Both the position numbers and the translations under genes were made by a program. Source: Propionivibrio soli (GTDB lineage: Bacteria > Pseudomonadota > Gammaproteobacteria > Burkholderiales > Rhodocyclaceae). From it: DNA of 64,000 nt. Every line of letters begins with the position of its first letter. Position 1 is the stretch's first letter. Location: NCBI RefSeq assembly GCF_025770765.1, contig NZ_JANZKY010000022.1:1-64000 (forward strand), written 5' to 3'. Shown one piece after another: positions 1,205 to 15,055 of the stretch. The notes under the pieces are model-generated. The model made no database searches. It saw only the letters and a program-made list of their open reading frames with translations, and was not told the origin of the DNA.

Positions 1205-1247
1205 TTGCCAACATCCCGTCATTTCCATATTATTGGAATAATGGAAA
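1205..1247 (+). promoter_or_regulatory. ars promoter and overlapping ArsR operator
   Basis: A sigma-70-like pair TTGCCA (1205-1210) and TATTAT (1228-1233) with a 17-bp spacer is overlapped by an inverted repeat. TTTCCAT at 1222-1228 faces ATGGAAA at 1241-1247, and the right arm includes the arsR start codon. ArsR-family repressors bind such palindromes over the -10 region and leave on As(III) or Sb(III) binding. The expected transcript start would fall at about 1240, so arsR may be leaderless. Confidence 0.6.
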
Positions 1248-1558
1248 CGAAAGACGCTGTTCTTGCTTTGGCCGCGTTGGCCCAGGAAAGCCGCCTGGCG
1301 GTATTCCGGCTGCTTGTTCGTAATGCTCCCGAGGGATTGACCGCGGGGTTGATCGGCGAGCAGCTGGAGATGCCGGCGCCGACGCTGTCGTTTCATCTCA
1401 AAACGCTGGCGCAGGCGGGGCTCGTAAGCATGGTGCAGGAAGGGCGGTATGTTCGTTATCGCGCGGTGCTTGCCGGGGTCGATGCCCTGGTAGCCTTCCT
1501 TAAAGAGGACTGCTGCCGAGGAAATCCAAAACGTTGTTCTACGAAAGGCAGCTCATGA
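1241..1558 (+). CDS. arsR: ArsR-family arsenite-responsive repressor
   Basis: This 105-residue winged-helix protein has an ArsR/SmtB fold, with the recognition helix around residues 45-60 (APTLSFHLKTL). It lacks the classical ELCVCDL metal motif in that helix. Instead Cys91, Cys92 and Cys99 sit near the C-terminus (DCCRGNPKRC), the arrangement of the Acidithiobacillus-type ArsR that binds As(III) through C-terminal cysteines. The ATG at 1241 was preferred over an upstream TTG because that TTG lies inside the probable -35 element. No good Shine-Dalgarno precedes the ATG. It overlaps arsC by 4 bases (ATGA) and leads the operon it probably represses. Confidence 0.9.
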   Translation: METKDAVLALAALAQESRLAVFRLLVRNAPEGLTAGLIGEQLEMPAPTLSFHLKTLAQAGLVSMVQEGRYVRYRAVLAGVDALVAFLKEDCCRGNPKRCSTKGSS

Positions 1559-2067
1559 GTTCCCGTCCGTTCATCAACGTGCTGGTGTTGTGCACCGGCA
1601 ACTCCGCCCGCTCTATTCTGGCCGAGGCGCTCTTCAATCATCTCGGTGCGGGTCGCGTGCGGGCTTACTCGGCCGGCAGCCACCCGGCGGGAATCGTTAA
1701 CCCCATGGCGCTGGAAACGCTGGCGCGTCATAGCATTCAAGCTCCCGCTGATGTACGCAGCAAATCGTGGGATGAATTCGCTGCGCTAGGAGCGCCGCAT
1801 TTCGATTACATCTTCACGGTGTGTGCGAGCGCAGCGGGCGAGGCCTGTCCGGTCTGGCCGGGGCATCCCGCGACGATCCACTGGAGTATTGCAGACCCGG
1901 CGCATATTGAACCGGAGGAGGCGCGGCGCGAGGCATTCGAGAGGGCTTTCCGCTCGTTGGAGAAGCGTATCCGGGCCTTCCTCGCGCTCGATCTCAGCGT
2001 GTTGTCCTGCAAGGATGTCGTCATGGCGGCGCGGATGATCCACGAAGCCGCATCGGAGGTCGAATGA
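1555..2067 (+). CDS. arsC: Arsenate reductase, low-molecular-weight phosphatase type
   Basis: The protein has 170 residues. The phosphatase P-loop CTGNSARS (Cys13) near the N-terminus binds arsenate and forms the thiol adduct. A second pair of cysteines in the segment VCASAAGEACPVWPG fits the thioredoxin- or mycothiol-linked relay used by this class. It reduces As(V) to As(III), the substrate of the efflux pump encoded next. I chose the ATG at 1555, which overlaps the arsR stop, because the P-loop then sits at its usual distance from the N-terminus. The last four bases overlap acr3. The C-terminal 30 residues extend past the usual fold end. Confidence 0.9.
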   Translation: MSSRPFINVLVLCTGNSARSILAEALFNHLGAGRVRAYSAGSHPAGIVNPMALETLARHSIQAPADVRSKSWDEFAALGAPHFDYIFTVCASAAGEACPVWPGHPATIHWSIADPAHIEPEEARREAFERAFRSLEKRIRAFLALDLSVLSCKDVVMAARMIHEAASEVE

Positions 2068-3137
2068 GCGCGCAATGTGAAATCACCGCGAAGGCGGCGG
2101 CCGGAGCGCCGATGAGTGTCTTCGAGCGTTATCTCAGCGTCTGGGTCTTTCTCTGCATTGTTGCCGGTATCGTGCTGGGACAAATGCTGCCCGTGTTGTT
2201 TCAGTCGATTGGGCGCATGGAGGTCGCGCAGGTCAATCTGCCCGTCGGGCTCCTGATCTGGGTGATGATCATCCCAATGCTGGTCAAGGTGGATTTCGGC
2301 GCCTTGCACGAGGTGCGTCAACACGTGCGCGGGATCGGCGTTACGTTGTTCGTCAATTGGCTGGTCAAGCCGTTCTCGATGGCCTTTCTCGGGTGGCTTT
2401 TCGTGCGCCAGGTCTTTGCGCCGCATCTTCCCGCGGGGCAGATCGACAGCTACATCGCGGGACTCATCCTGCTCGCCGCCGCACCGTGCACGGCGATGGT
2501 CTTTGTGTGGAGCCGGTTGTCGAATGGCGACCCGCTTTTTACGCTGTCGCAGGTGGCGCTCAACGATACGATCATGATCTTCGCCTTCGCGCCCCTGGTC
2601 GGCTTCCTGCTCGGTATTTCGGCGATCACTGTGCCTTGGGATACCTTGTTTACGTCGGTCGTCCTGTACATCGTGATTCCGTTGATCCTCGCGCAGTTCT
2701 GGCGCAAGTCGTTGCTCTCGCGCGGGCAGGCGGCGTTCGATGCGGCGATGGAGAAGATCGGCCCCTGGTCGATCACGGCGCTTCTCGCCACGCTCGTGCT
2801 GCTGTTCGCCTTTCAGGGCAAGGCCATCATCGACCAGCCGCTCGTCATCGCGCTGCTCGCCGTGCCGATCCTGATCCAGGTCTTCTTCAATTCGGCGCTT
2901 GCTTACGGGCTCAATCGCGCGCTCGGCGAAAAGCACAACGTCGCCTGTCCGTCAGCGCTGATCGGCGCGTCGAACTTCTTCGAACTCGCCGTCGCGGCAG
3001 CGATCAGCCTGTTCGGTTTCGAGTCCGGTGCCGCGCTGGCGACGGTGGTGGGCGTGCTGATTGAAGTGCCGGTGATGCTCGGAGTGGTGAAGGTCGTTAA
3101 TGCCAGCAAGGATTGGTATGAAAGAAGAAACGCTTGA
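2064..3137 (+). CDS. acr3: Arsenite efflux permease, Acr3 family
   Basis: This 357-residue membrane protein has about ten hydrophobic helices and typical Acr3 features: GIVLGQMLP near the N-terminus, an LIWVMIIPMLVKVDF segment, and AAPCTAMVFVWS containing the conserved membrane cysteine. It exports As(III) as an antiporter in the cytoplasmic membrane. The length matches the family. It overlaps arsC by 4 bases and arsN2 by 20 bases, so the genes are translationally coupled. It is not the 12-helix ArsB type. Confidence 0.95.
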   Translation: MSAQCEITAKAAAGAPMSVFERYLSVWVFLCIVAGIVLGQMLPVLFQSIGRMEVAQVNLPVGLLIWVMIIPMLVKVDFGALHEVRQHVRGIGVTLFVNWLVKPFSMAFLGWLFVRQVFAPHLPAGQIDSYIAGLILLAAAPCTAMVFVWSRLSNGDPLFTLSQVALNDTIMIFAFAPLVGFLLGISAITVPWDTLFTSVVLYIVIPLILAQFWRKSLLSRGQAAFDAAMEKIGPWSITALLATLVLLFAFQGKAIIDQPLVIALLAVPILIQVFFNSALAYGLNRALGEKHNVACPSALIGASNFFELAVAAAISLFGFESGAALATVVGVLIEVPVMLGVVKVVNASKDWYERRNA

Positions 3138-3567
3138 GTTGCGCCGCGCCCAGGAAGCGGATCTACCTGCCATCAGGGCGTTGCTCGAAAGCTGCAGTTT
3201 GCCGACCGGCGACCTCGCTGAATCGCTTCCCGGTTCGTTCTGCATCGGCGAGGTCGATGGCGAGATCGTCGGCGTCTCCGGCGTGGAGATGTTCGGATCA
3301 AACGGCTTGCTGCGCTCCCTCGCTGTCGCCCCGCCAAGGCGCGGCCGCGGCTTGGCGGCGCGGTTGGTCGACTGGTGCGAAGACCAGGCGCGACGGGACC
3401 GCGTGACGGCGCTCTATTTGCTGACGACGACCGCGGCGGACTATTTCCGCAGGCGCGGATACGACGACGTACCGCGAGAGTCAGCGCCGGCTTCCATTTC
3501 CGGCCATCCTCAATTTCGGGGACTCTGCCCGGCAAGCGCCAAGTGCCTGCGTAAGCAACTGACATGA
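3118..3567 (+). CDS. arsN2: GNAT acetyltransferase of the ArsN2 type
   Basis: This 149-residue GNAT-fold protein carries the acetyl-CoA loop in the region LRSLAVAPPRRGRGLAARL (about residues 62-80). Its end, FRGLCPASAKCLRK, is the C-terminal signature I associate with ArsN2 proteins of arsenic operons. ArsN homologues acetylate organoarsenicals or arsenic-conjugate analogues; the actual substrate here is not shown by the sequence. I chose the ATG at 3118, preceded by CAAGGAT, over one 18 bases upstream. It overlaps both acr3 and the following sigma factor gene (ATGA at 3564). Confidence 0.85.
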   Translation: MKEETLELRRAQEADLPAIRALLESCSLPTGDLAESLPGSFCIGEVDGEIVGVSGVEMFGSNGLLRSLAVAPPRRGRGLAARLVDWCEDQARRDRVTALYLLTTTAADYFRRRGYDDVPRESAPASISGHPQFRGLCPASAKCLRKQLT

Positions 3568-4136
3568 CGCAGGACGATCTGCTGCGCCTGTATCCCGCTT
3601 GTCGCAAGCAATTGGTCGCCAGCCTCTCGCGTCTGGTCGGCCCCACCGAAGCCGAAGATGTAGCCGACGAGACGTTGGTGCGCGCTACAAAAGCGATTGG
3701 CGATTTCCGAGAGGACGCAGCGCTATCCACGTGGCTGCATCGGATCGGGATGAATCTTGCCTACGATCTCCTGCGCAAGCAGCAGCGGCAACCTTGCGTT
3801 TCGGTTGAGGATAGCGCCCACGATGGCGCGGGCGCCGACATTCCTATCGAGGCTGACGATACGGAAGACATCGAACGTCGCCAGATGAGCCAATGCGTCC
3901 AGGAACTCATGGGGCGGCTGCTGCCCGAACAACGATACGTTCTCGCCCAGGCGGACATGCACGACCGCAAAGTTGCGGAAATTGCCAAAGATGAAGGGAT
4001 AACGACCGGCAACGCGAAGATACGTTTGCATCGTGCGCGGCGGGCGATGAAATCGGTGCTGGAAAAACACTGCGAGGTGCTTCAGGAAGCCGATGGCGTA
4101 TGTCGGTGCGTTCCAAAAAACAGAATTCCGAGCTAA
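3564..4136 (+). CDS. ECF sigma factor with Cys-containing tail, ars-operon member
   Basis: This 190-residue protein has sigma region 2 at about residues 8-75 (DETLVRA, FREDAALSTWLHRIGMNLAYDLLR) and region 4 at about 115-165 (LPEQRYVLA, ITTGNAKIRLHRARRAM). The tail after region 4 holds Cys170, Cys180 and Cys182 (VCRCVPK), and the second ECF factor at 8356 has a matching tail (VCCFVPR). CorE-like ECF factors sense metal directly through a C-terminal Cys-rich extension; by analogy this one may sense arsenite or another thiophilic ion, which is inference. No anti-sigma gene is adjacent. It overlaps arsN2 by 4 bases and closes the operon. Confidence 0.85.
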   Translation: MTQDDLLRLYPACRKQLVASLSRLVGPTEAEDVADETLVRATKAIGDFREDAALSTWLHRIGMNLAYDLLRKQQRQPCVSVEDSAHDGAGADIPIEADDTEDIERRQMSQCVQELMGRLLPEQRYVLAQADMHDRKVAEIAKDEGITTGNAKIRLHRARRAMKSVLEKHCEVLQEADGVCRCVPKNRIPS

Positions 4137-4180
4137 ACCCTGTTATTTTTTTCGAGGCGGACCAGCCTAGCGTAGCGCTG

Positions 4181-4918
4181 TCAGCAGATGTCGATCTGAT
4201 AACGGAAGGTATCGGCGGCGCCGTGCGAACGGCGCCATTCGATGGGCTTACGGTCGAATCCCAAGGCAAGCCGCTCGATGACGACGACGGGTTTGCCTTC
4301 CTTGATCCCGAGCGCCTTGGCAACGGCGGCATTGGCCGAGTCGACCGTCAGCGTTTCTTTCGCCGAGGCGATGACCTGTCCGCAACGTGACTCGTAGAAC
4401 GGGTAGAGCAGATTTTCGAAGTCGGCGAGTTCGATGTTCAACAACGAGGCGAAGCGTGCCTTCGGAAGCCAAATCTCCTCGACGAGGACGACCAGACCGT
4501 CGATCAGGCGCAACCGGTCGAGACGGATTGCCTTGGACTTTGCTGTCAGACCCAACTCCGCCGCGACGTGCTCGGGGGGGGGCTCGACGGTACGCGAGAG
4601 AACTCTCCCCTCGGGCACCGTGCGTCCGCCTTCGCTAGTTAGGTGACGGAAAAAGCGGAAGAGCGATCCGTCGAAACTTGGCCGCCGCACGAAGGTGCCG
4701 CGACCTTGCGCGCGTTCCAGTAGACCTTCTGCGACGAGCACGTCTACGGCTTTCCTGATCGTTCCCACGGCGACGCCGTAGATTTTCGTGAGCTCGGCCT
4801 CGGTGGGAATTGCCTGATCCGGGCGCCACTCCCCGGCGGTAATTTTTTCCGCCATTTCGTCGCGTAACCGTTGGTAGAGGGGGAGGCGTTCATCTTGCGC
4901 CAGCATGCCTGAATTCAT
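4181..4918 (-). CDS. GntR/HutC-family repressor with UTRA domain
   Basis: The 245-residue protein has an N-terminal GntR winged helix at about residues 12-78 (LYQRLRDEMAEKI, IPTEAELTKIYGVAVGTIRKAVDVLVAEGLLERAQGRGTFV in part) and a C-terminal UTRA ligand-binding domain from about 95 to 240, ending with the HutC-type EWRRSHGAADTFRYQIDI. It is divergent from the permease gene at 5199. A perfect palindrome and promoter in the 280-bp spacer suggest it represses that operon, and the ligand is probably the permease substrate. It converges on the ars sigma factor gene with 44 bp between them. Confidence 0.88.
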   Translation of the reverse strand: MNSGMLAQDERLPLYQRLRDEMAEKITAGEWRPDQAIPTEAELTKIYGVAVGTIRKAVDVLVAEGLLERAQGRGTFVRRPSFDGSLFRFFRHLTSEGGRTVPEGRVLSRTVEPPPEHVAAELGLTAKSKAIRLDRLRLIDGLVVLVEEIWLPKARFASLLNIELADFENLLYPFYESRCGQVIASAKETLTVDSANAAVAKALGIKEGKPVVVIERLALGFDRKPIEWRRSHGAADTFRYQIDIC

Positions 4919-5001
4919 ACAGCCGTCCGGATGTCCAGAAGGCTGACAACTCTATCTGCATGGGGGCAATAAGTCCAATCGCGGCGTTGCTTCGGAGTCA
5001 C

Positions 5002-5054
5002 TTGACATCCCGATTCCGTGCGCCTAGCATGCGCTTCAATTCATATATATGAAT
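5002..5054 (+). promoter_or_regulatory. Promoter and palindromic GntR-type operator
   Basis: TTGACA (5002-5007) and TAGCAT (5025-5030), 17 bp apart, form a strong sigma-70 promoter reading towards the permease. Just after the expected start lies the perfect 16-bp palindrome ATTCATATATATGAAT (5039-5054). An operator at this position would block transcription. The leader that follows is about 160 nucleotides long and I see no riboswitch in it. The divergent GntR gene at 4918 is the obvious candidate repressor. Confidence 0.65.
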
Positions 5055-5198
5055 AGATGAATCGGTCGTCGGTGTCGGGGATGTCGAAAACGAGAAAGAT
5101 AGTCTCAGTTCCCGAAACAAACCGGTCGTTGTCGTTGTGGGGCTCGCCGGACGACGATCGTACGTACATATAGCTAGAAGATAACAGGGGGAAGAGTC

Positions 5199-6500
5199 AT
5201 GATGAGTTTGGTCGTCGTAGTTGCGATCGTGATCTCGATCGCGCTGGGTTATAGAACAAAGATAAACACAGGTTTCTTCGCCATTGCGTTCGCTTACCTG
5301 ATCGGATGTTTCGCGATGGACGTGAAGGCTCCAGACATCGTGAAGATGTGGCCGATCAGCATCTTCTTCGTCATCTTCGCAGTGTCGATCTTCTACAACT
5401 TTGCCCTGGTGAATGGCACGCTGGAGAAGCTCGCCGGGCACCTGATGTACGGTTGCCGAAAGTTCCCGCACATGCTGCCATTCGCCGTGTTCCTGGCGGC
5501 GACGCTGATCGCCGGCATGGGTGCCGGTTTCTACACGGTGCTCGCGTTCATGGCGCCGATCACGCTATTGCTGTGTGAGAAGACCGGCATGGGCAAGATG
5601 ATTGGCGCGATGGCGGTCAACTATGGTGCGCTGGCGGGTGCGAATTTCATGGCCAGCCAGAGCGGTCTGATCTTCCGCGGTCTTATGCAAACGGCCGGCC
5701 TATCGGCTGACGCGGCGTTTGTCGATTCGATCGGGATTTTCGTAAGCACGATGGTGATTCCGGTCCTCGTTCTCGGTTTCCTCGTGTTCTTCACCGACCA
5801 CCGGAAGACGATGAGCAACGGCGTCGCGCTTTCCGAACGTCCCGCGCCCTTTGACCGCCACCAGAAGACGACGCTGTTTCTGATCGCGCTGATGATGGGA
5901 ATCGTACTCGCCGCTCCGCTCCTGCACTTGGCGCTGCCTGCCAACAAGACGATCACTTTCGTCAATTCGAAGATGGACATCGGCCTCGTCGCCAGCGTGT
6001 TCGTGGTCATCGCCTTGCTGTTGAAGCTAGGCGACGAGAAGAAGGTCATCGCCATGGTGCCGTGGAGTACGCTGATCATGATCTGCGGCGTCGGTATGTT
6101 GATCTCGGTGGCTATCAAAGCTGGAACAATCAACCAACTGGCGGCATGGATCGGAACCAGCCTGCCGAAGATTCTCGTGCCGCTCGCGATGTGCGTGGTG
6201 GCGGCAATCATGTCGCTGTTTTCGAGCACGCTCGGTGTGGTCACGCCCGCGCTGTTCCCGCTCGTACCGTCGTTGTCCTCGTCACTGGGGATCGAGCCGA
6301 TGCTCCTGTTCATCGCCATCGTCGTAGGCGCCCAAGCGTCAGCGATTTCACCGTTCTCCTCTGGCGGTAGCCTCGTGCTTGGGGCGTGCGTGACGGAAGA
6401 AGGGCGTAGTGAATTGTTCCCGCAGCTGTTGTTCCGAGCCGTGCCGATCGGATTCGTGGCTGCGCTGTTGCTTTCCATCGGGCTCCTCTTCGTCTTCTAG
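5199..6500 (+). CDS. SLC13/MatC-like carboxylate permease
   Basis: The 433-residue integral membrane protein has about eleven or twelve hydrophobic segments. Its N-terminus (an ISIALGYRTKINTGFFAIAFAYLIG-like start) resembles MatC-type dicarboxylate carriers, and paired re-entrant-like motifs (GAGFYTVLAFMAP; AISPFSSGG near residue 385) fit the ion-transporter superfamily containing SLC13 and Dcu permeases. Likely role: uptake of an organic acid across the inner membrane. AGGGGGA lies 7-13 bases upstream of the ATG at 5199; a second ATG follows immediately. The hydrolase-like gene 9 bp downstream and the divergent GntR regulator suggest one small catabolic locus. The substrate is unknown. Confidence 0.8.
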   Translation: MMSLVVVVAIVISIALGYRTKINTGFFAIAFAYLIGCFAMDVKAPDIVKMWPISIFFVIFAVSIFYNFALVNGTLEKLAGHLMYGCRKFPHMLPFAVFLAATLIAGMGAGFYTVLAFMAPITLLLCEKTGMGKMIGAMAVNYGALAGANFMASQSGLIFRGLMQTAGLSADAAFVDSIGIFVSTMVIPVLVLGFLVFFTDHRKTMSNGVALSERPAPFDRHQKTTLFLIALMMGIVLAAPLLHLALPANKTITFVNSKMDIGLVASVFVVIALLLKLGDEKKVIAMVPWSTLIMICGVGMLISVAIKAGTINQLAAWIGTSLPKILVPLAMCVVAAIMSLFSSTLGVVTPALFPLVPSLSSSLGIEPMLLFIAIVVGAQASAISPFSSGGSLVLGACVTEEGRSELFPQLLFRAVPIGFVAALLLSIGLLFVF

Positions 6501-6509
6501 ATAATTGTC

Positions 6510-7343
6510 ATGAGCACATCGGAAACCTTGTTGCAAGGCGTCGTCGACATCCACATCCACACCAATCCGGACATACGCCTCCGGCGCCTCTCCGACTTGC
6601 AGCTCGCCGCCGAAGCACGGCGGGTCGGGGCTCGGGCCATCGTCATCAAGTCCCATCTGGTAACGACCATGGACCGGGCGACGATTGCCCGCGAAGCTGT
6701 ACCGGGCATCGACGTGTTCGGAGGCATCGTCCTCAATCCGCATGTCGGCGGCCTTAATGCCGTCGCAGTCGATACGGCGATCAAGCTGGGTGCAAAGATC
6801 GTCTGGCTGCCGACATCGTTTTCTGCCAACGAACGAAAACGGCAGGGCAAGAGCGACGGGATCGAGACGGTGATGGGCGGCAAGGCCGCCCCAGCGCTGA
6901 TTCCGATCCTGAAAATGGTGGCCGAGGCCGATATCGCGCTCGGCACCGGGCACGGGACGCCAGCGGAAATACTGGTTGTCGTCGAGGAGGCCAGGAAACA
7001 GGGAGTGGGAAAAATCATCGTCAATCATCCCGAATGGACAACGATTGATATGTCGATTGACGACCAGAAGCGGCTCGCGCAATTCGACGTGTTCTTCGAG
7101 CGTTGTTACGCGCGTAACGTCGGCGGTGCGTACGAGAAGAACTTCCACCGCAATCTGAAAGCGATGGAGGCCATCGGTTTCGAATCGACGATCGTTGCGA
7201 CCGATGGTGGCCAGGTTGAAAATCCGATGTGGAGTGAAGCGCTGGCTGAATACATACGTTTCCTGAGACAGGCCGGCGTACCGTCGGCAGCCCTGGACCG
7301 GATGACGAAGGCCAATCCAGCGCGCGTTCTGGGATTGAGCTAA
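6510..7343 (+). CDS. Amidohydrolase-like protein (DUF6282 type)
   Basis: This 277-residue protein has metal-hydrolase features in TIM-barrel order: VDIHIHTNPD near residue 12, IKSHLV near 47, GTGHGTPAE near 150, NHPEW near 173 and ATDGGQVENP near 230. These are typical metal ligands of the amidohydrolase superfamily and match what I know of the DUF6282 group. It starts 9 bp after the permease stop and is probably co-transcribed. Likely it hydrolyses a lactone or amide brought in by the permease; that is inference and the substrate is not visible. Confidence 0.75.
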   Translation: MSTSETLLQGVVDIHIHTNPDIRLRRLSDLQLAAEARRVGARAIVIKSHLVTTMDRATIAREAVPGIDVFGGIVLNPHVGGLNAVAVDTAIKLGAKIVWLPTSFSANERKRQGKSDGIETVMGGKAAPALIPILKMVAEADIALGTGHGTPAEILVVVEEARKQGVGKIIVNHPEWTTIDMSIDDQKRLAQFDVFFERCYARNVGGAYEKNFHRNLKAMEAIGFESTIVATDGGQVENPMWSEALAEYIRFLRQAGVPSAALDRMTKANPARVLGLS

Positions 7344-7411
7344 CACGGTACTTGCCATTGCCCTGAGGGTGGCCTAGTCACGGGCGAGCCGCGCACGTTT
7401 TCTCCACCGAC

Positions 7412-7438
7412 GTATCCTTTTTGTAGGCTGATTCGTCC
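7412..7438 (+). promoter_or_regulatory. Candidate ECF-type promoter
   Basis: GTATCC, then TTTTTGT, then CGTCC after a 16-base spacer, lies about 80 bp upstream of the DGC-protein operon that encodes an ECF sigma factor. A near copy (GCATCC, TTTTTGT, CGTCT, spacer 15) lies upstream of the permease operon at 11203-11228. A shared two-block element before a sigma-factor operon and another redox/metal operon fits an autoregulated ECF regulon, but two sites are thin evidence. Confidence 0.4.
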
Positions 7439-7442
7439 AACC

Positions 7443-7463
7443 GGTGTGCCAACAGTGCACACC
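7443..7463. promoter_or_regulatory. Inverted repeat GGTGTGC/GCACACC
   Basis: Perfect 7-bp arms (7443-7449 and 7457-7463) flank a 7-base centre, immediately downstream of the candidate ECF promoter. It may be an operator at the transcript start or a 5' hairpin. There is no T-tract, so a terminator for the upstream operon is less likely. Confidence 0.4.
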
Positions 7464-7516
7464 TCGCGGAAGGGGCCGCATGCCTTCCGCTAGCCCACCA
7501 AAGAAAGGACGAAACA

Positions 7517-8062
7517 ATGAAGGATGCGAACGACCGGTTCTCGCTCGATGTCGATGCGGTGGCCGGATACTGTCCCTCGGGCGAAGCCTGGGCGGAAGAC
7601 AAGATCGCCCGCGGTGCCGTTCCGGTGCTCTCGTGCGAAGGCCCGTGCATTCGGGGCGAGATTGCGCGCCTTTCGGCCAATCTCGTGGCCAGACAGCCGC
7701 CGTACGCGCGAGCGTGTTATGCGGAAACGATCCTCGTGCCGCACTCCGCGATGGCCCGTTGGGTCAAGCAAGCCGAAGAAGTGGTTGTCATCGATGGTTG
7801 TTTCCTCAAATGCATCGGGCGCGTGGTGAACAACCTCGTGGATCGCGAGCGAGTTGTGCACATCGATGCGCTCCCCTTGCACAAGCGGTTCTCGAAGGTC
7901 TTCCACATGGATGACGTCGCCGAAGCCGAGCGGCGCGACACGGCACAAAGCGTCGCCGAGAAGATTCTCGGTCTCTTGAAGGATCGCGGTACCTCGTCGA
8001 AACCGGATGTTACGCACCGCGATTGCGCTTCCGTTTGCGCCGCCGTAGAAAAAACCCGCTGA
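7517..8062 (+). CDS. DGC-domain putative zinc-binding protein
   Basis: The 181-residue cytoplasmic protein has the defining IDGCFLKC segment (about residues 93-100), as well as GYCPSG near residue 19 and SCEGPCIRGEIA near 42. Together these give the paired cysteines of the DGC family annotated as putative zinc-binding. Function in this family is not settled. A late DCASVC adds two more cysteines. AAAGGAC is a good ribosome site for the ATG at 7517. It heads an apparent operon with the AhpD-like protein and the second ECF sigma factor, which suggests a metal or thiol role. Confidence 0.78.
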   Translation: MKDANDRFSLDVDAVAGYCPSGEAWAEDKIARGAVPVLSCEGPCIRGEIARLSANLVARQPPYARACYAETILVPHSAMARWVKQAEEVVVIDGCFLKCIGRVVNNLVDRERVVHIDALPLHKRFSKVFHMDDVAEAERRDTAQSVAEKILGLLKDRGTSSKPDVTHRDCASVCAAVEKTR

Positions 8063-8075
8063 GAGGAGAATCAAA

Positions 8076-8324
8076 ATGCTCGACGAAAGAACGAACGATC
8101 TGGTTGCCATCGGTGCGTCGGTAACGGCCAACTGCCAGCCGTGCCTCGATCATCACGTGGCGAGTGCGAGAAATCACGGTGTCAGTGACGAAGACATCAG
8201 CGCAGCGGTCGAGGTCGGCAAGCAGGTTCGCCGTGGCGCAGGTGCGGCGATGGACAAGAAAGTCGTCGATGTCCTCGCGAAAGCCGCATCCGCCTGCGCT
8301 CCAAGCGGATGCGGCTGCGGCTGA
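8076..8324 (+). CDS. Small AhpD/carboxymuconolactone decarboxylase-like protein
   Basis: This 82-residue protein matches the short core of the AhpD/CMD fold: NCQPCLDHHV (residues 19-28) gives the CxxC-x2-H redox signature, followed by a helix with GVSDEDISAAVEVG. A CGCG tail adds two cysteines at the end. AhpD-like proteins act as thiol-disulfide reductants for peroxidases; the single short repeat here would need to oligomerise. GAGAGGAG precedes the ATG. It lies 13 bp after the DGC gene and 31 bp before the sigma factor gene. Confidence 0.75.
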   Translation: MLDERTNDLVAIGASVTANCQPCLDHHVASARNHGVSDEDISAAVEVGKQVRRGAGAAMDKKVVDVLAKAASACAPSGCGCG

Positions 8325-8355
8325 CCGAAGGGCTGGCGTTGTGCAAGAATGAGCC

Positions 8356-8949
8356 ATGGACGGCAAGACCGACTATCAATGCCTCAACAAGGCCTGGCGA
8401 GCGCACAAGAAAGAGATTCGCAGCTTTCTTGTGCACCGCATGGGCGATGCGGCGGCGGCTGACGATCTCCTGCAGGAGCTTTTTCTCAAGGCGCTCATGC
8501 TAGGAAGGGGCTTCTGCGACATCGACAACCGGCGGGCATGGCTCTTTCAGGTGGCGCGCAATCTGCTCGTCGATCGCTTGCGGCTCGAAAAGGATCATGC
8601 GCCGCTGCCTGACGACGTGGCCGCCGAGCCGCTCGGGGAGGTCGCCCCCGTCGATCTGCTGAGCCACTGTCTGCCGCGCGTACTGTCGGAGCTTTCGCCC
8701 GAAGATCGCGAAGCCATCGTGCTCTGCGACATTCAAGGCGTGACCCAGAAAGACTTCGCCGATCGCCACGGAATATCGCTGCCCGGAGCGAAGTCGCGCG
8801 TGCAGCGGGCTCGGCAGCGCTTGCAGGCTCAATTGGTCAGCGCGTGCAAGGTCACGTTCGACGAAGCGGGGAAAGTCTGCTGCTTCGTTCCACGTCCGCC
8901 GCTGCAGGCGCCTCTCGACTCGTCTCTCGAACCTTCCCAGAAATCGTAG
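8356..8949 (+). CDS. ECF sigma factor with Cys-containing tail
   Basis: The 197-residue protein has sigma region 2 at about residues 14-80 (DDLLQELFLKAL, RRAWLFQVARNLLVDRLR) and region 4 at about 108-158 (LSPEDREAIVLCDIQGVTQKDFA in part, GAKSRVQRARQRL). The tail has Cys164, Cys175 and Cys176 within VCCFVPR, closely like the tail of the ars-operon ECF factor (VCRCVPK). No anti-sigma gene is adjacent, so signal sensing through the tail is an attractive inference. The ribosome site before the ATG is weak, which suggests coupling to the upstream gene. Targets may include its own operon and the permease operon. Confidence 0.85.
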   Translation: MDGKTDYQCLNKAWRAHKKEIRSFLVHRMGDAAAADDLLQELFLKALMLGRGFCDIDNRRAWLFQVARNLLVDRLRLEKDHAPLPDDVAAEPLGEVAPVDLLSHCLPRVLSELSPEDREAIVLCDIQGVTQKDFADRHGISLPGAKSRVQRARQRLQAQLVSACKVTFDEAGKVCCFVPRPPLQAPLDSSLEPSQKS

Positions 8950-9003: not shown

Positions 9004-9097
9004 TGTAACGCTGTGTAACGCATCGCCGTTCTGCAACCGAGCGATGCAAAACGGCGTGCTCAAGCAACATGCCGCTTACACGTCGCGCCTCTAATGT
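9004..9097 (+). promoter_or_regulatory. Activator-type promoter with TGTAAC direct repeats (copy 1)
   Basis: TGTAAC repeats at 9004-9009 and 9014-9019 (10-bp period, typical for OmpR-family dimers). CCGCTTACA at 9072-9080 contains an inverted half-site, and a -10-like TAATGT sits at 9092-9097. Each of these elements recurs at exactly the same spacing upstream of the paralogous gene at 16039, with patchy matches between, such as GCGATGCAAA. No good -35 is visible, which fits activator dependence. The OmpR-type regulator encoded at 15052-15795 is the natural candidate. Confidence 0.65.
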
Positions 9098-9161
9098 CGC
9101 CATGGAAACGGAGTTCGTCGAATTCCGTTTCGGTTCAGACACTGGCAACGAGGAGACCGCC

Positions 9162-9668
9162 ATGAAAACGCAATCGATCGTCAAACGTATCTTCCAAGTG
9201 ACTCTGCTCGGCGCCGCCTTGGCAACGCCGGCAATGGCGCAAATGGGCCCGGGAATGGGCGGTGGATGGGGCATGGGGCCTGGCGGCGGCCCACGCATGC
9301 AGGGGTGCGTCGCAGCGCAAGGCGGCGCGGGCGCTGGCTGCATGCGCGGCATGGGCGCTGGCCGTGTAGCGGGCATGGGCCAAGGTATGGGTCGGGGGAT
9401 GGGCCGCGGTATGGCCGCCGGCATGGGCCCGGGCCGGGGAACGATGGGCGGTGCCGCTGGTACCCCGGGTCGGGCGTTGATGACGCCTGAAGAACAGACC
9501 GCTCAGCAGGCGAAGATGCGCGCCGTCAAGAGCTACGACGAGTGCAAGCTCGTGCGGACGGAACACCGCACCCTGATGGAAAAGCGTGCGAAGGAGAAAG
9601 GCGTCGCGTTGTTCGCGCCGCGCGGCAATCCCTGCGACAACCTCAAAGCGCGCGGATTGATCCAGTAA
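9162..9668 (+). CDS. Secreted Gly/Met-rich protein, paralogue 1
   Basis: The 168-residue precursor has a signal peptide (cleavage likely after ATPAMA, residue 25). A low-complexity Gly/Met region of about 80 residues follows, with repeated GMG units and over ten methionines. The compact C-terminal domain begins at LMTPEEQ; its AKMRAVKSYDECK, RAKEKGV and ARGLIQ segments are shared with the protein at 16039. Two cysteines there (DECK and NPCD) are conserved in both. Two further cysteines lie in the Gly/Met region. Met clusters in secreted proteins commonly bind Cu(I) or Ag(I); that role is inference. GAGGAGA precedes the ATG. The next gene starts 37 bp downstream. Confidence 0.82.
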   Translation: MKTQSIVKRIFQVTLLGAALATPAMAQMGPGMGGGWGMGPGGGPRMQGCVAAQGGAGAGCMRGMGAGRVAGMGQGMGRGMGRGMAAGMGPGRGTMGGAAGTPGRALMTPEEQTAQQAKMRAVKSYDECKLVRTEHRTLMEKRAKEKGVALFAPRGNPCDNLKARGLIQ

Positions 9669-11048: not shown

Positions 11049-11202
11049 GTTTTAACCTTCGGCGATCGGCGGTCTCTCGTCGACCGCACGTTCTGCCTTG
11101 AGCGCGGTGTAGTTGCTTACGGCGCCGTCGGGCCTAAGCTGCCTCCGGCGCTGGCATGTGCGTATAGGCGGTACCGGCTCCGAAAACTCCGGCCCGGACC
11201 CT

Positions 11203-11228
11203 GCATCCTTTTTGTCCCTCGTTCGTCT
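11203..11228 (+). promoter_or_regulatory. Candidate ECF-type promoter (second copy)
   Basis: GCATCC, TTTTTGT and CGTCT, with 15 bases between the outer blocks, repeat the element at 7412-7438. It sits 34 bp before the permease start, a natural distance for a promoter. One-base spacer difference and only two examples limit confidence. Confidence 0.4.
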
Positions 11229-11262
11229 CCCCCTCTGAGACCAACACAACTCGGGGGATTTC

Positions 11263-12330
11263 GTGACAGATTCATCCATCACCTTGCCGGCCACGGCGCA
11301 GAAGCGCTGGTTGGCCGGCCTTGCCGGCGCGGCGCTGCTCTGGTTCTTCGCGTATAGCCGGCTTGACGTATTTGCCGACAGTGTCGTAACGGCCTTCGGG
11401 CTCGACCGGAACACACATTTCGGCGAGGCGGTTCACTTTTTCGTCTTCGATACGCCGAAAGTGCTCCTGCTGCTCGTCGCCGTCGTTTTCGTGATGGGCG
11501 TAGTGCAGACCTTCTTTGCCCCGGAGCGCACGCGCACCTTGCTTGCCGGGCGCCGCCTCGGAATCGGCAACGTTCTGGCGGCGACGCTCGGCATCGTGAC
11601 GCCGTTCTGTTCGTGCTCGGCCGTGCCTTTGTTCATCGGCTTTCTCTCGGCCGGCGTGCCGCTCGGCGTGACGTTCTCGTTCCTGATCTCGGCGCCGATG
11701 GTGAACGAAGTGGCTCTCGTGCTCCTCTTCGGCCTGTTCGGCTGGAAGGTGGCCGCGCTTTACCTGGCGATGGGCTTGCTGGTGGCGATCGTTGCGGGGT
11801 TGGTGATCGGCCGCCTGGGAATGGAAAAGCATCTCGAAGACTGGGTGCGGAAGATCCAGGCCTCGCCCGCGATTGCTTCCGACGCGGAGTCGCTGCATTG
11901 GGTGGAACGTTTTGAGTCCGGCACCCGGCATGTGCGTCAGATCGTCGGCAAGGTGTGGGTGTACGTGCTCATGGGCATCGCCCTTGGCGCTGGAATCCAT
12001 GGTTACGTGCCGGAATCGTTCATGGCCTCATTCATGGGGCGCGACGTATGGTGGGCGGTGCCGGCCGCCGTGCTCCTTGGTGTGCCGATGTATTCGAATG
12101 CCGCGGGAATCATCCCGATCGTCCAGGCGCTGCTCGGCAAGGGGGCCGCGCTCGGTACCGTGCTCGCGTTCATGATGGCCGTGATCGCACTCTCCGCCCC
12201 CGAACTCATCATCCTGCGCAAGGCTCTGCGTCCGGCGCTGATCGCGACCTTTGTCGGTGTTGTTGCATCAGGAATCATGTTGGTGGGGTATGTCTTCAAC
12301 GCGGTATTCCAGTCGGTGATCCTCGGATAA
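11263..12330 (+). CDS. Permease of the UPF0718/ArsP-like family
   Basis: The 355-residue membrane protein has about eight to ten helices. Its family signature is TPFCSCSAVPLFIGF (about residues 106-120), with the paired cysteines, and a second PMYSNAAGIIPI repeat-like motif near residue 268 matching the inverted-repeat architecture. Relatives export trivalent organoarsenicals (ArsP) or are proposed Cu/Zn exporters; the substrate cannot be read here. Translation starts at GTG 11263 with a CGGGGGA ribosome site. It leads an operon with a reductase-like protein and a mini-thioredoxin, a common partner of this permease family. Confidence 0.85.
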   Translation: MTDSSITLPATAQKRWLAGLAGAALLWFFAYSRLDVFADSVVTAFGLDRNTHFGEAVHFFVFDTPKVLLLLVAVVFVMGVVQTFFAPERTRTLLAGRRLGIGNVLAATLGIVTPFCSCSAVPLFIGFLSAGVPLGVTFSFLISAPMVNEVALVLLFGLFGWKVAALYLAMGLLVAIVAGLVIGRLGMEKHLEDWVRKIQASPAIASDAESLHWVERFESGTRHVRQIVGKVWVYVLMGIALGAGIHGYVPESFMASFMGRDVWWAVPAAVLLGVPMYSNAAGIIPIVQALLGKGAALGTVLAFMMAVIALSAPELIILRKALRPALIATFVGVVASGIMLVGYVFNAVFQSVILG

Positions 12331-12381: not shown

Positions 12382-13161
12382 ATGGCTCAATCGAATCAAA
12401 CCGTGAGTTTCATCGGATCCGGAAGGGTCGCCCATATCATGCTCGGTGGCTGGGCGCGTGCGAAAAAGATGCCGGCGAACGTCGTCGCGTACGACGCCAA
12501 CTCGGTCGCCATCGCGGCCCTGCAGGCGGCTTTCCCGGCGGTAAAGGCCGCTGCGCTGGAGGAGGCCGCGGCGGCTGACGTCGTCTTTGCGGCTGTCCAT
12601 CCGCCGGTCATGGGCGAGACACTGGACCGTATCGCCGGGCAGTTACGCACGGACACCATCGTCTGTTCGCTGGCGCCCAAGGTGAAACTGGCTGCCCTGA
12701 AGGAGCGGCTCGGCGGATTCTCACGCGTGGTACGCATGAACCCGAATGCCCCGAGCATTATCGGCCACGGCTACAATCCGGTCGCCTTCGGGGAGGGGCT
12801 GCCGGCCGCGGCGCGCCATGCGTTTTTCGAACTTCTCCAGCCCCTCGGTCAGATGCCCGAAGTTCCTGAAGACCGACTGGAAACCTATGCGGTGATCAGC
12901 GCCATGGGACCGACGTATTTCGGCTTCCAGTTCGCGACCGTCGATGCGCTCGCGCAATCGTTCGGGCTCGACCCCGATGCCTCGCGTGCGGCGATGCACG
13001 CCATGTTGCAGGGTACGGTCGATCTGCTGTTCGCCAGCGATGTGCCGCGGCAGCGCGCACTCGACCTCGTCCCCGTGCGTCCGCTGGCGGAAAGCGAGGC
13101 CGAAATCGTCGGTATGCTGCAAAGCAGGATCGGCGCGATGCACGCCAAGCTGACGAGCTGA
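12382..13161 (+). CDS. NAD(P)-binding protein, pyrroline-5-carboxylate reductase-like
   Basis: This 259-residue protein begins with a Rossmann fold (VSFIGSGRVAHIMLGGW, residues 8-24). A central VVRMNPNAPSIIGHGYNP segment is like the P5C reductase RxxPNxP motif, and a helical dimerisation domain follows. True ProC works in proline synthesis, but the setting between a permease and a mini-thioredoxin argues for a different redox job. AAGGAGGAAG gives a strong ribosome site. It lies 51 bp after the permease and 99 bp before the thioredoxin-like gene. The substrate is unknown. Confidence 0.75.
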   Translation: MAQSNQTVSFIGSGRVAHIMLGGWARAKKMPANVVAYDANSVAIAALQAAFPAVKAAALEEAAAADVVFAAVHPPVMGETLDRIAGQLRTDTIVCSLAPKVKLAALKERLGGFSRVVRMNPNAPSIIGHGYNPVAFGEGLPAAARHAFFELLQPLGQMPEVPEDRLETYAVISAMGPTYFGFQFATVDALAQSFGLDPDASRAAMHAMLQGTVDLLFASDVPRQRALDLVPVRPLAESEAEIVGMLQSRIGAMHAKLTS

Positions 13162-13260
13162 CGAGGCCAGGTCCGCACGGGGATGAACTGCGTACGGACT
13201 CTCCGCCAGCCGCGGAGAAAAATATCGACTTTACGACACACAAAAAAAGGGGAAATACGA

Positions 13261-13491
13261 ATGAAAGAAGTCAAAGTACTGGGCACCGGGTGCGCCAACT
13301 GCCGCAATACGGTGGCCCTCGTCGAACAGGTGGCGCGCGAGAAAGGCGCCGCGATCAAGCTCGATAAGGTCGAGGATCTGCCGTCGATCATGAGCTATGG
13401 CGTGATGTCGACACCCGGTGTGGTCATCGACGGCAAGGTCGTGCATGCCGGCGGGGTGCCGTCGCGCGACAAGGTCGAAAGCTGGTTCTAA
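13261..13491 (+). CDS. Mini-thioredoxin (redox-active disulfide protein)
   Basis: The 76-residue protein has a minimal thioredoxin fold with the active-site-like LGTGCANCRNT near residues 7-17 and the cis-Pro region SYGVMSTPGVVIDG. Such short thioredoxin-like proteins often accompany UPF0718 permeases and have been linked to metal and arsenic handling. The ATG at 13261 has AAAGGGGAA upstream. It probably passes electrons or a metal to the permease; that is inference. Confidence 0.82.
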   Translation: MKEVKVLGTGCANCRNTVALVEQVAREKGAAIKLDKVEDLPSIMSYGVMSTPGVVIDGKVVHAGGVPSRDKVESWF

Positions 13492-13609: not shown

Positions 13610-15055
13610 TCAGGCGGCGTGCGAGCCGCGGGGTAGGACGAGTGCCGCGCGCAGGCCGCCCTCGCGGCGGTTTTCGAGTTTGAGATCGCCGCCGTGCAGC
13701 AAGGCGATGTCCTTGACGATCGAGAGGCCCAGGCCAACACCGCCCGTATCCCTGTTGCGCGAGGCGTCAGGACGATAGTAGGGTTCGGTCACCTTCTCAA
13801 GTTCTTCGGGGGCGATACCTTCACCCTCGTCGTCGACGGCGATAAGCAGCGTCTGGCCGTCATCTTCGACATGCAGGCGGGCGCACCGTCCGTATTTGAT
13901 CGCGTTGTCGACGAGGTTCTGCAGCGCGCGGCGCAGGGCCGAGAGGCGGCCGGTGTATGGCTTTTGCGCGGCGCCTTCGACGCTGACCGGGCGACCGAGG
14001 ACCGCCGCATCTTCGGCCAGGCTTTGCAGCAGGGCGTTGACGTCGATGGGGCGTGTCGGTTCGCTTTCCTGCAATCCGCGCAAGTAGTCGAGCGTACCGT
14101 CGATCATCGTCGCCATCGCCTCGAGGTCGGCGCCCATCTGTTCGCGTAGGGTGTCGTCGTCGACGAGTTCGGCTCGCAGGCGCAAGCGGGTGAGTGGCGT
14201 ACGCAGGTCGTGCGAAACGGCGGCGAGGGCGCGCGCCCGTTCGTCGATCAGGCGCTTGATTCGCGTTTGCATGCGATTGAACGCCTGGGCGGCCAGCGCC
14301 GTTTCGGCCGGCCCGTCTTCAGGGAGTGGAGGAGCGTCGAGGTCGCTGCCCAGCGCGTCGGCCGCGTGGGCCAGCCGCTGCAGCGGCTTCGTGGCCAGTC
14401 GTACGGCGATCGTCACGCCGGCAAGCGTGGCCAACAGCGTCAACGCCAGTTGGAGCAGCAAATCGTTCGGTAACGCCGGTGCCGCTTCGGCATCGCGCAA
14501 CGCGGAAACGCGTACCCACTGGCCGTCGTTGAGGCGCACGTCGAAGGTACGCCAGCCCATCGGGCCAGCACCCATGCCACCCATGCCGCGTCCCAGTCCT
14601 TGGCCTGGCCCCGGCGTTTGTCCGGTTGATGAGCCGGCGCCCATTCGGCCCATCCCGGCGCCCATGCCGCCGCCCATTCCTCTTCCCTGACCGGCGCCGA
14701 ACGAGCGAATCTCGCGTTCGCTGCCCAGGCGCGCCGAGACGGCGTTCTGGATCGTGCCGTGAGGAACCGTCGGCGATACCTGGTTCTCGCCGATCAGCAT
14801 GAGCTTCATGTCCGCCCCCTGCAGGGCGGGCAGAGCGCCCTCGCGGCGCGTCGGCTCGGTGGCTTCGAGAACACGTACGGCCTCGGCAATGCGGTCGGCC
14901 ACATGGAGCCCGCGCGCCTGAGAGACGACGGCGGCGCGCTCGTCCCATTGCAGCCAGAGGCTTGTCAGCTGGGCGGCGAGCAGGCCGCCCAGCAGGATCA
15001 GCGCCATGCGCGCGAAGAGGCTCGACGGCATGAGCGAAAAGCGAGCGGTCTTCAC
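13610..15055 (-). CDS. Sensor histidine kinase with Gly/Met-rich periplasmic insert
   Basis: The 481-residue kinase has TM1 at about 17-36, a periplasmic loop, TM2 at about 199-220, a HAMP linker, HisKA with His282 (AVSHDLRTPLTRLRLR) and a HATPase domain near the C-terminus (NLVDNAIKYG; GGVGLGLSIVKDI). Its layout is that of EnvZ/RstB-type kinases. The odd part is residues 120-168 of the loop: repeated GMG units with seven methionines, like the secreted proteins encoded at 9162 and 16039. It may bind the same ligand or interact with them. It overlaps the upstream response regulator gene by 4 bases. Confidence 0.9.
   Translation of the reverse strand: MKTARFSLMPSSLFARMALILLGGLLAAQLTSLWLQWDERAAVVSQARGLHVADRIAEAVRVLEATEPTRREGALPALQGADMKLMLIGENQVSPTVPHGTIQNAVSARLGSEREIRSFGAGQGRGMGGGMGAGMGRMGAGSSTGQTPGPGQGLGRGMGGMGAGPMGWRTFDVRLNDGQWVRVSALRDAEAAPALPNDLLLQLALTLLATLAGVTIAVRLATKPLQRLAHAADALGSDLDAPPLPEDGPAETALAAQAFNRMQTRIKRLIDERARALAAVSHDLRTPLTRLRLRAELVDDDTLREQMGADLEAMATMIDGTLDYLRGLQESEPTRPIDVNALLQSLAEDAAVLGRPVSVEGAAQKPYTGRLSALRRALQNLVDNAIKYGRCARLHVEDDGQTLLIAVDDEGEGIAPEELEKVTEPYYRPDASRNRDTGGVGLGLSIVKDIALLHGGDLKLENRREGGLRAALVLPRGSHAA
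14552..14698 (-). other. Gly/Met-rich insert within the sensor loop
   Basis: This segment encodes kinase residues 120-168: a low-complexity Gly/Met stretch between the two membrane helices, interrupted by a short SSTGQTPGPG linker. After it the loop returns to ordinary sequence (WRTFDVRLNDGQWVRV). Seven methionines in 49 residues is unusual for a sensor loop. Confidence 0.85.

Follow-up and report, generated by a model that had tools for sequence, protein, structure and literature searches.

The question raised by the 64,000 nucleotide stretch of Propionivibrio soli analysed here (contig NZ_JANZKY010000022.1, positions 1 to 64,000, forward strand; hereafter the window) is what two extracytoplasmic function (ECF) sigma factors with cysteine-bearing tails do in an arsenic resistance locus. 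Arsenic resistance is normally described as repression by ArsR or ArsD. The two factors, SIG1 and SIG2, probably constitute a two-tier arsenic-stress response that operates without an anti-sigma factor. The best supported part of this reading is that two ECF factors, both free of an anti-sigma factor, govern an arsenic regulon; the mode of sensing is less certain.

SIG2 scores above the NCBI cut-off for SigZ (TIGR02959, 174.8 versus 168.65 bits), a family for which we know of no role so far. SIG1 is below that cut-off (66.2 versus 168.65 bits) and exceeds only the general ECF superfamily cut-off, among the best 25 of 79 matches; judged by its sequence, it is a distant ECF family outside SigZ. 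Relatives were collected by whole-genome searches, and all genome counts include the window's own genome. Query P0002 matched 20 of 274 genomes of the class at 1e-15 and 15 of 250 genomes of the order at 1e-20, query P0001 matched 5 of 28 genomes of the genus at 1e-20, and TIGR02959 matched 34 of 349 genomes of the phylum at 1e-30. The TIGR02959 listing holds 35 matches, of which 20 were fetched, 2 were already in the sample, 12 served as short loci and G774 was left out. Dropped before any counts were L153 (another ECF), L065 (an Azotobacter ECF with zf-HC2) and L147 (in which a stop interrupts the sigma gene). L087 represents the same plasmid stretch as L066; it is kept among the 38 SIG2 rows but excluded from the 68 sequences and from the counts of neighbourhoods and promoters.

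A tree of 76 rows, based on few columns with the tail columns removed, shows a SIG2 clade of 37 rows (support 100/99) nested in a 60-row SigZ clade (100/100). The SIG1 clade of 6 rows (100/99) is situated outside the SigZ clade, and two relatives are loosely joined to it (90/76), one of which is L030, a Desulfobacula metagenome-assembled genome. SIG1 and SIG2 share 26% identity and fall in separate clades, which rules out a recent duplication of one sigma gene. A SIG1 profile run against the 349 phylum genomes gave, among the matches listed outside the window, none above 116.4 bits (SIG1 itself gives 286.8), and several of the matches in the phylum are known RpoE or SigZ places. Thus SIG1 proper appears confined to the genus apart from a single case in the rest of the family (L083). 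Foldseek matches are ordinary ECF folds, and viral contigs yielded a single distant ECF (L173) and no other match.

Arsenic markers were taken from one reference set (the window plus three annotated plasmid ars loci) and sought within 5 kb of each sigma gene; the marker thresholds, as well as the 15-bit promoter line used below, were chosen after the neighbourhoods were known, and some stretches end at contig ends. A marker is found at 30/36 SIG2-type genes (23/36 without counting ArsP), at 5/5 SIG1 genes, at 1/2 SIG1-like genes and at 10/23 canonical SigZ genes, but at 0/22 RpoE controls. The neighbourhoods of homologues, proposed as a check in the initial annotation, thus tie arsenic genes to both factors. 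Of the ArsM and ArsI neighbours of canonical SigZ, four of each kind were tested, and all are above the NCBI cut-offs (8/8). Each of the five SIG1 loci outside the window also carries a SIG2-type gene, and L045 carries two. This last locus, in a genus member, displays three sigma genes of the SIG1 and SIG2 kinds in one ars island (L045:6232-16309). One ars locus, L051:5577-7357, holds two adjacent SigZ genes, one of the SIG2 type and one of the canonical type. A GST gene follows canonical SigZ in 6 of 8 compared loci (L136, L137, L138, L140, L144 and L148), with an ArsR-type regulator before it in some.

A de novo search for spaced word pairs in the intergenic DNA of 36 loci showed exact TGCATC-N16-CGTC in 13/36. 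The best pair of any kind was present in 3 loci in two rounds of shuffles that kept single-base composition, and in 5 of the 22 RpoE loci. CGTC is typical of ECF -10 elements. The consensus is TGC[AG]TCC-N15-CGTCT, with a fuller form [CT]TGC[AG]TCCTTTT-N9-TTCGTCT. In the window, a promoter-like site lies 31 nt upstream of the listed arsP start and scores 37.3, the runner-up among separate sites in the 64 kb reaching 18.3. Seventeen sites from SIG2 loci served to train the promoter matrix; outside the training are the window, the canonical loci, the 12 short loci and three plasmid loci (the Comamonas gene being close to L094). A site of at least 15 bits is present in 26/35 SIG2 loci, a count that is not independent of the training, and in 2/35 of the reversed-sequence controls. 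Untrained canonical SigZ loci show a site in 12/22 (reversed 1/22), the 12 further short SigZ loci, also untrained, in 6/12 (reversed 0/12), and RpoE loci in 1/22 (reversed 0/22).

The position of these sites points to arsenic genes. In 20/22 of the arsP-bearing SIG2 loci, the site is close to where the arsP frame begins, distances being measured on stop-to-stop frames whose true starts are uncertain; L083 has it before trx-arsP, and L066 before the gene block that follows the sigma gene. All four short SigZ loci showing arsP have the site at arsP (4/4, spacer 9 each), and one short locus showing arsI has it before arsI. The canonical SigZ sites are found before arsM, arsI or the GST gene, or, as L061 and L062 show, before the sigma gene, with a spacer of 9 in 12/13 canonical loci with a site. 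The three untrained plasmid loci give 27.5, 19.0 and 14.1 bits directly after the sigma gene, the last value being below the 15-bit line. A strict pattern is present in 6/34 phylum genomes with SigZ versus 7/315 without a match at 1e-30 (p = 0.0006); with exact spacing, chosen afterwards, the figures are 6/34 versus 3/315. Five of the six SigZ genomes carry the strict site at 2.5 kb or less from the sigma gene. A looser pattern gives three sites in the window's genome, and the full form is found only at 11202.

By tblastn at 1e-10, 1363 of 72,556 plasmid records match SIG2, mostly Klebsiella (1050), a count in which SIG2-type status is not established for all. Two examples, from Klebsiella and Salmonella plasmids, show the sigma gene between arsH and arsD, with C105, C164 and VCC kept. 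L240 and L241 are SIG2-type genes in this position on enterobacterial plasmids and display a weaker promoter-like site before arsD. In L045, the arsP promoter behind the middle sigma gene is diverged, CTGCATCCGATT-N9-TGCGTCAACA, and this factor and its arsP promoter look, by sequence, as if they had drifted together.

A different promoter-like element precedes the DGC-CMD-SIG2 genes. Its general forms are GTATCCTTT-N13-CGTCNAA and GTATCC-N16-CGTC[CA]AA. It is present once in each of 5/28 genus genomes, ahead of a gene block with SIG2; these are the same five that carry SIG1, and the remaining 23 lack it. In L045-L048 and L083 the site is situated directly after SIG1 and before CMD. In L030 a TGTAACC...CGTC site is found right before the ribosome site of CMD, and the next gene after CMD is the SIG1-like sigma gene; L049 has a weaker form. 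The plain reading, which we infer from these positions, is that SIG1-type factors would read the GTATCCTTT-N13-CGTCNAA promoter and so feed SIG2 in the window. Right after the predicted SIG1 -10 element, an inverted repeat GTACC-N5-GGTAC was seen by eye in L046, L047, L048 and L083, with a counterpart GGTGTG...CACACC in the window (7443-7463); it is possibly an operator.

Both open reading frames of the initial annotation, their lengths (190 and 197 aa) and all six tail cysteines named there are exactly as claimed, and the tails follow region 4 directly, the Pfam region 4 ending at residue 162 in SIG1 and 156 in SIG2. The spacing is C170-x9-C-x-C in SIG1 and C164-x10-CC in SIG2. The three-cysteine tails exceed what chance would give: of nine ECF-like frames examined among 21 matches in the genome, only SIG1 and SIG2 have three cysteines within their final 40 residues, against 0 to 2 in each of the seven others. 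Better conserved is a pair of cysteines that brackets sigma-4. C105 and C164 of SIG2 (C111 and C170 of SIG1) are present in 38/38 SIG2-clade, 23/23 canonical SigZ, 6/6 SIG1 and 2/2 SIG1-like sequences, but in 0/22 RpoE controls, which also show no cysteine past the C164 equivalent (0/22). Only five columns are invariant in 68/68 sequences (duplicate row out): W62, D73, C105, R153 and C164.

The remaining tail cysteines are less conserved than this pair. In the 38 SIG2-clade rows, C164 is found in 38, C175 in 33 and C176 in 32. SIG1 sequences have at least two further tail cysteines (6/6), as CxC or as a shifted CC. From these counts, two of three neighbouring positions of the last strand are usually cysteines in SIG1 and SIG2, although not the same two. 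The common ending VC[RC][CF]VP, on which the two tails had been compared, was rejected as a family signature: SIG1 orthologues end in VLCCVP, VLCCEP, VCRCTP or ILCCSR. An AlphaFold2 model of SIG2 from a four-row alignment (mean predicted local distance difference test, pLDDT, 72.2) shows residues 164-168 and 174-179 as the strands of a hairpin, which should place C164 near C175/C176.

Natural variants bear on the role of the tail. L089 (VEGH), L091 (VESH), L084 (VETF) and L086 (VEGF) have these residues in place of VCC. L089 and L091 retain a 36.5-bit full-form site before arsP (both are training sites), L084 and L086 retain acr3, and L122 and L128, with the tail VCS, keep the site before arsP. 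Because the L089/L091 and L122/L128 variants keep the arsP site, C175/C176 are not required for the arsenic link nor, sometimes, for the promoter.

SIG2 is like SigZ (TIGR02959 / NF007215) in its score, in the invariant C105 and C164 and in the promoter type. It differs in that members of the SIG2 clade mostly end in a short tail containing VCC and almost always possess C9, C54 and C124, while canonical SigZ has C163 besides C164 (23/23) and a tail with further cysteines (at least two in 19/23). The feature that SIG1 and SIG2 have in common with SigZ is the two cysteines at either end of sigma-4 and not VC[RC][CF]VP.

CorE and CorE2 of Myxococcus xanthus (ECF44/ECF238) are also described, in passages of PMC3107203 and PMC8999054, as anti-sigma-free ECF factors with C-terminal cysteines and metal-resistance targets, and the CorE cysteines can activate with metal (PMC3107203, in part). 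However, CorE has a 38-residue domain with six cysteines, the conserved C181/C184/C192/C194 and a CXC in the linker (PMC3107203, PMC8999054, same passages). The pattern C-x2-C-x7-C-x-C, derived from the conserved positions given there in PMC3107203, is absent from SIG1 and SIG2, SIG1 having the final C-x-C only, and there is no CXC in the sigma-2/sigma-4 linker (SIG1 76-110, SIG2 78-104); according to sections of PMC8999054, this linker motif holds for ECF44 but not for most of ECF238. The suggestion that SIG1 and SIG2 are a minimal version of CorE was rejected on this cysteine pattern, and the two factors are themselves only 26% identical. OrbS of Burkholderia cenocepacia (ECF243) is comparable in having a short cysteine tail just past region 4.2 that acts as an on-board metal sensor replacing the anti-sigma factor (PMC9023288, in part). 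OrbS differs in having Cys196/199/203/209, in being inhibited by Fe(II) and in its siderophore context, and the passages of PMC9023288 considered mention no cysteine at the start of sigma-4. With regard to a sensor of the OrbS type, four natural SIG2 variants are without C175/C176. The conserved cysteines of SIG1 and SIG2 could, by their placement, form an on-board sensor.

The assertion that both factors lack anti-sigma genes holds for the immediate neighbourhood: no anti-sigma family match (NCBIfam, Pfam or both) was recognised in the 11 open reading frames beside SIG1 and SIG2, the rest of the genome not having been searched for a cognate. A same-strand HxxxCxxC (ZAS-type) frame within 700 nt of the sigma gene is found in 0/5 SIG1 loci, in 4/36 SIG2 loci and near 2/23 canonical SigZ genes, the frames differing in length.

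From the genes, the cysteine conservation, the arsenic neighbourhoods, the promoter-like sites and the way these sites accompany the factors, all of which were computed, we infer a pairing of factor and promoter, a cascade, the binding of a ligand and the direction of a switch. Arsenic entry would lead to synthesis of SIG1 from the ArsR-type ars operon. SIG1 would then read GTATCC-N16-CGTC[CA]AA and switch on the gene block holding SIG2, and SIG2 would read TGC[AG]TCC-N15-CGTCT and turn on arsP together with its thioredoxin, giving the order SIG1, SIG2, arsP. In both factors, a trivalent arsenical or another thiol-binding signal may act on the thiols of the invariant pair bracketing sigma-4 and of the short cysteine-bearing tail after it, shifting sigma-4 between an inactive and a promoter-competent state. 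For the ArsP family, export of trivalent organoarsenicals is reported, and ArsP is given as an exporter of methylarsenite in part of PMC12607644. A more far-reaching version, in which the SigZ family are direct sensors of trivalent arsenicals, C105-C164 and a replaceable third ligand in the tail binding As(III) or methylarsenite so that each sigma factor serves as its own receptor, and in which the sigma-to-sigma cascade of the genus orders inorganic before organic defence, is tentative and somewhat doubtful.

If the factors were only amplifiers, ArsR would control their synthesis and the cysteines would be structural, e.g. for Zn(II), with no sensing on the protein. SIG1 as the last gene of an arsR operon, overlapping arsN2, agrees with this, as do the many SIG2 genes behind arsR in ars gene blocks and the dispensable C175/C176 in four relatives. 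However, an ArsM or ArsI marker is present at 9 canonical SigZ loci, and all of these lack a match to the ArsR references used (9/9), and the invariant cysteine pair plus the clade-specific tail thiols exceed the needs of the fold, given 0/22 in RpoE. RNA-seq of a pBIC1a-type plasmid without arsenic, reported in part of PMC6286996, gives RPKM (reads per kilobase per million) values of 21 for arsR, 39 for arsH, 47 for the next gene, 9 for arsD and 4 and 4 for arsA. The gene at 47, annotated as hypothetical there, fits the sigma factor by gene order alone. A value of 47 versus 9 and 4 is as expected with the promoter off though sigma mRNA is made, and a sigma-like gene transcribed without arsenic beside a nearly silent arsD speaks against mere amplification, which is rather unlikely.

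A signal of oxidation or electrophilic thiol stress, with arsenic acting via thiol depletion, would suit the CMD/AhpD, thioredoxin and OsmC proteins among the neighbours and the GST gene that follows canonical SigZ in 6/8 loci of one group; in L136 and L144 a site is predicted between the two genes. But the genes recurring behind the sites are specific for arsenicals, i.e. arsP, arsM, arsI and, on two plasmids, arsD, and this explanation is distinctly unlikely. Least probable is a partner protein, e.g. CMD/AhpD, that regulates the sigma factor in soluble form and has escaped recognition as such. CMD adjoins SIG1 or SIG2 in the window, in 5/5 SIG1 loci, in L049 and in L030, and an antagonist is listed for Bacillus sigZ in a portion of PMC4138018. 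However, with the reference used, CMD has no match in the other SIG2 and canonical loci, and in relatives it is the first gene after the predicted SIG1 promoter, the place expected of a target.

Several observations weigh against the two-tier response by SIG1 and SIG2. Arsenic response, promoter use and metal binding are predictions from sequence. No arsenic marker is found at 13/23 canonical SigZ genes and at 6/36 SIG2 genes; the latter adjoin a cation-efflux gene, VIT1 plus DUF1415, RND plus outer-membrane efflux, OsmC plus TauE, and in two cases lie on short contigs. No 15-bit site is present in 9/35 SIG2, 10/22 canonical and 6/12 further loci, including L084 and L086 (at most 9.9 and 10.1 bits). 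Seven genomes without a SigZ match at 1e-30 have the strict pattern as well, and in the SigZ genome G332 it is far from sigZ. Because the SIG1 gene is linked to its site, the co-occurrence of the two is partly common descent. L084, L086, L089 and L091 lack both C175 and C176. The confidence of the SIG2 hairpin is modest (pLDDT of the tail blocks 68 and 58), and the single-sequence model of SIG1 is too poor for use (48.7). Because an antagonist is named for Bacillus sigZ (PMC4138018, in part), freedom from anti-sigma factors may fail for the SigZ family as a whole.

Table 1. Genes, cysteine codons and predicted promoters of the two sigma factors in the window
Feature	Position	Strand	Remark
arsR-arsC-acr3-arsN2 operon, SIG1 last	1205..3567	+	open reading frames; ArsN2 NF040501 144.6 bits, above cut-off 125
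SIG1	3564..4136	+	ECF sigma factor; start overlaps arsN2 stop
SIG1 Cys111 codon	3894..3896	+	sigma-4 start; invariant
SIG1 Cys170, Cys180, Cys182 codons	4071..4109	+	tail; C170 invariant
Predicted SIG1-type promoter before DGC-CMD-SIG2	7411..7440	+	GTATCCTTT-N13-CGTCCAA; CGTC at 7434-7437
DGC-domain protein	7517..8062	+	PF08859, 46.9 bits
CMD/AhpD-core protein with CxxC	8076..8324	+	PF02627 48.0 bits; TIGR00778 41.2 bits
SIG2	8356..8949	+	SigZ-family ECF sigma factor
SIG2 Cys105 codon	8668..8670	+	sigma-4 start; invariant
SIG2 Cys164, Cys175, Cys176 codons	8845..8883	+	predicted beta hairpin
Predicted SIG2/SigZ promoter before arsP	11201..11231	+	CTGCATCCTTTT-N9-TTCGTCTCCC
ArsP-family permease, predicted SIG2 target	11263..12330	+	PF03773, 238.1 bits
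ProC-like-labelled gene (12382-13161) and Thioredoxin_3 protein gene (13183-13491)	12382..13491	+	likely one transcript; family scan covered the thioredoxin

The coordinates of these features are collected in Table 1. The gene order of the first block is arsR-arsC-acr3-arsN2-SIG1, and the ArsR, ArsC and Acr3 orthologues in relatives match annotated ars proteins. SIG2 is likewise the terminal gene of DGC-CMD-SIG2. The genes after it encode a Met/Gly-rich protein, one more protein, a TrxC-like thioredoxin, ArsP, a putative ProC-like protein and a Thioredoxin_3 protein; the order of the last two genes is repeated in L048. Between SIG1 and its predicted target, positions 4181-7343 carry a gene for a GntR regulator and two others that match no NCBIfam model, one of which is membrane-transporter-like. 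This block looks inserted, because CMD is directly after SIG1 in five relatives. The arsP block is flanked on one side by the Met/Gly-rich small protein with GMG repeats (9069-9668) and on the other by a histidine-kinase-like protein (13610-15055) with the same kind of repeat in its N-terminal half.

Full-text searches of open-access papers gave no link between SigZ and arsenic or between an ECF factor and arsP or an ars operon; the main ECF reclassification is outside that coverage and may note part of it. What is apparently the same plasmid gene is classed under recombination and modulation in sections of PMC12504007. If arsP, arsM and arsI have a promoter of their own that a sigma factor reads, arsenic resistance would gain a second layer of control, and this would account for the sigma gene between arsH and arsD on enterobacterial plasmids. 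The data suggest that the SigZ family is an arsenic-response switch without the usual inhibitor protein, and the family would gain a testable regulon, promoter and sensor site.

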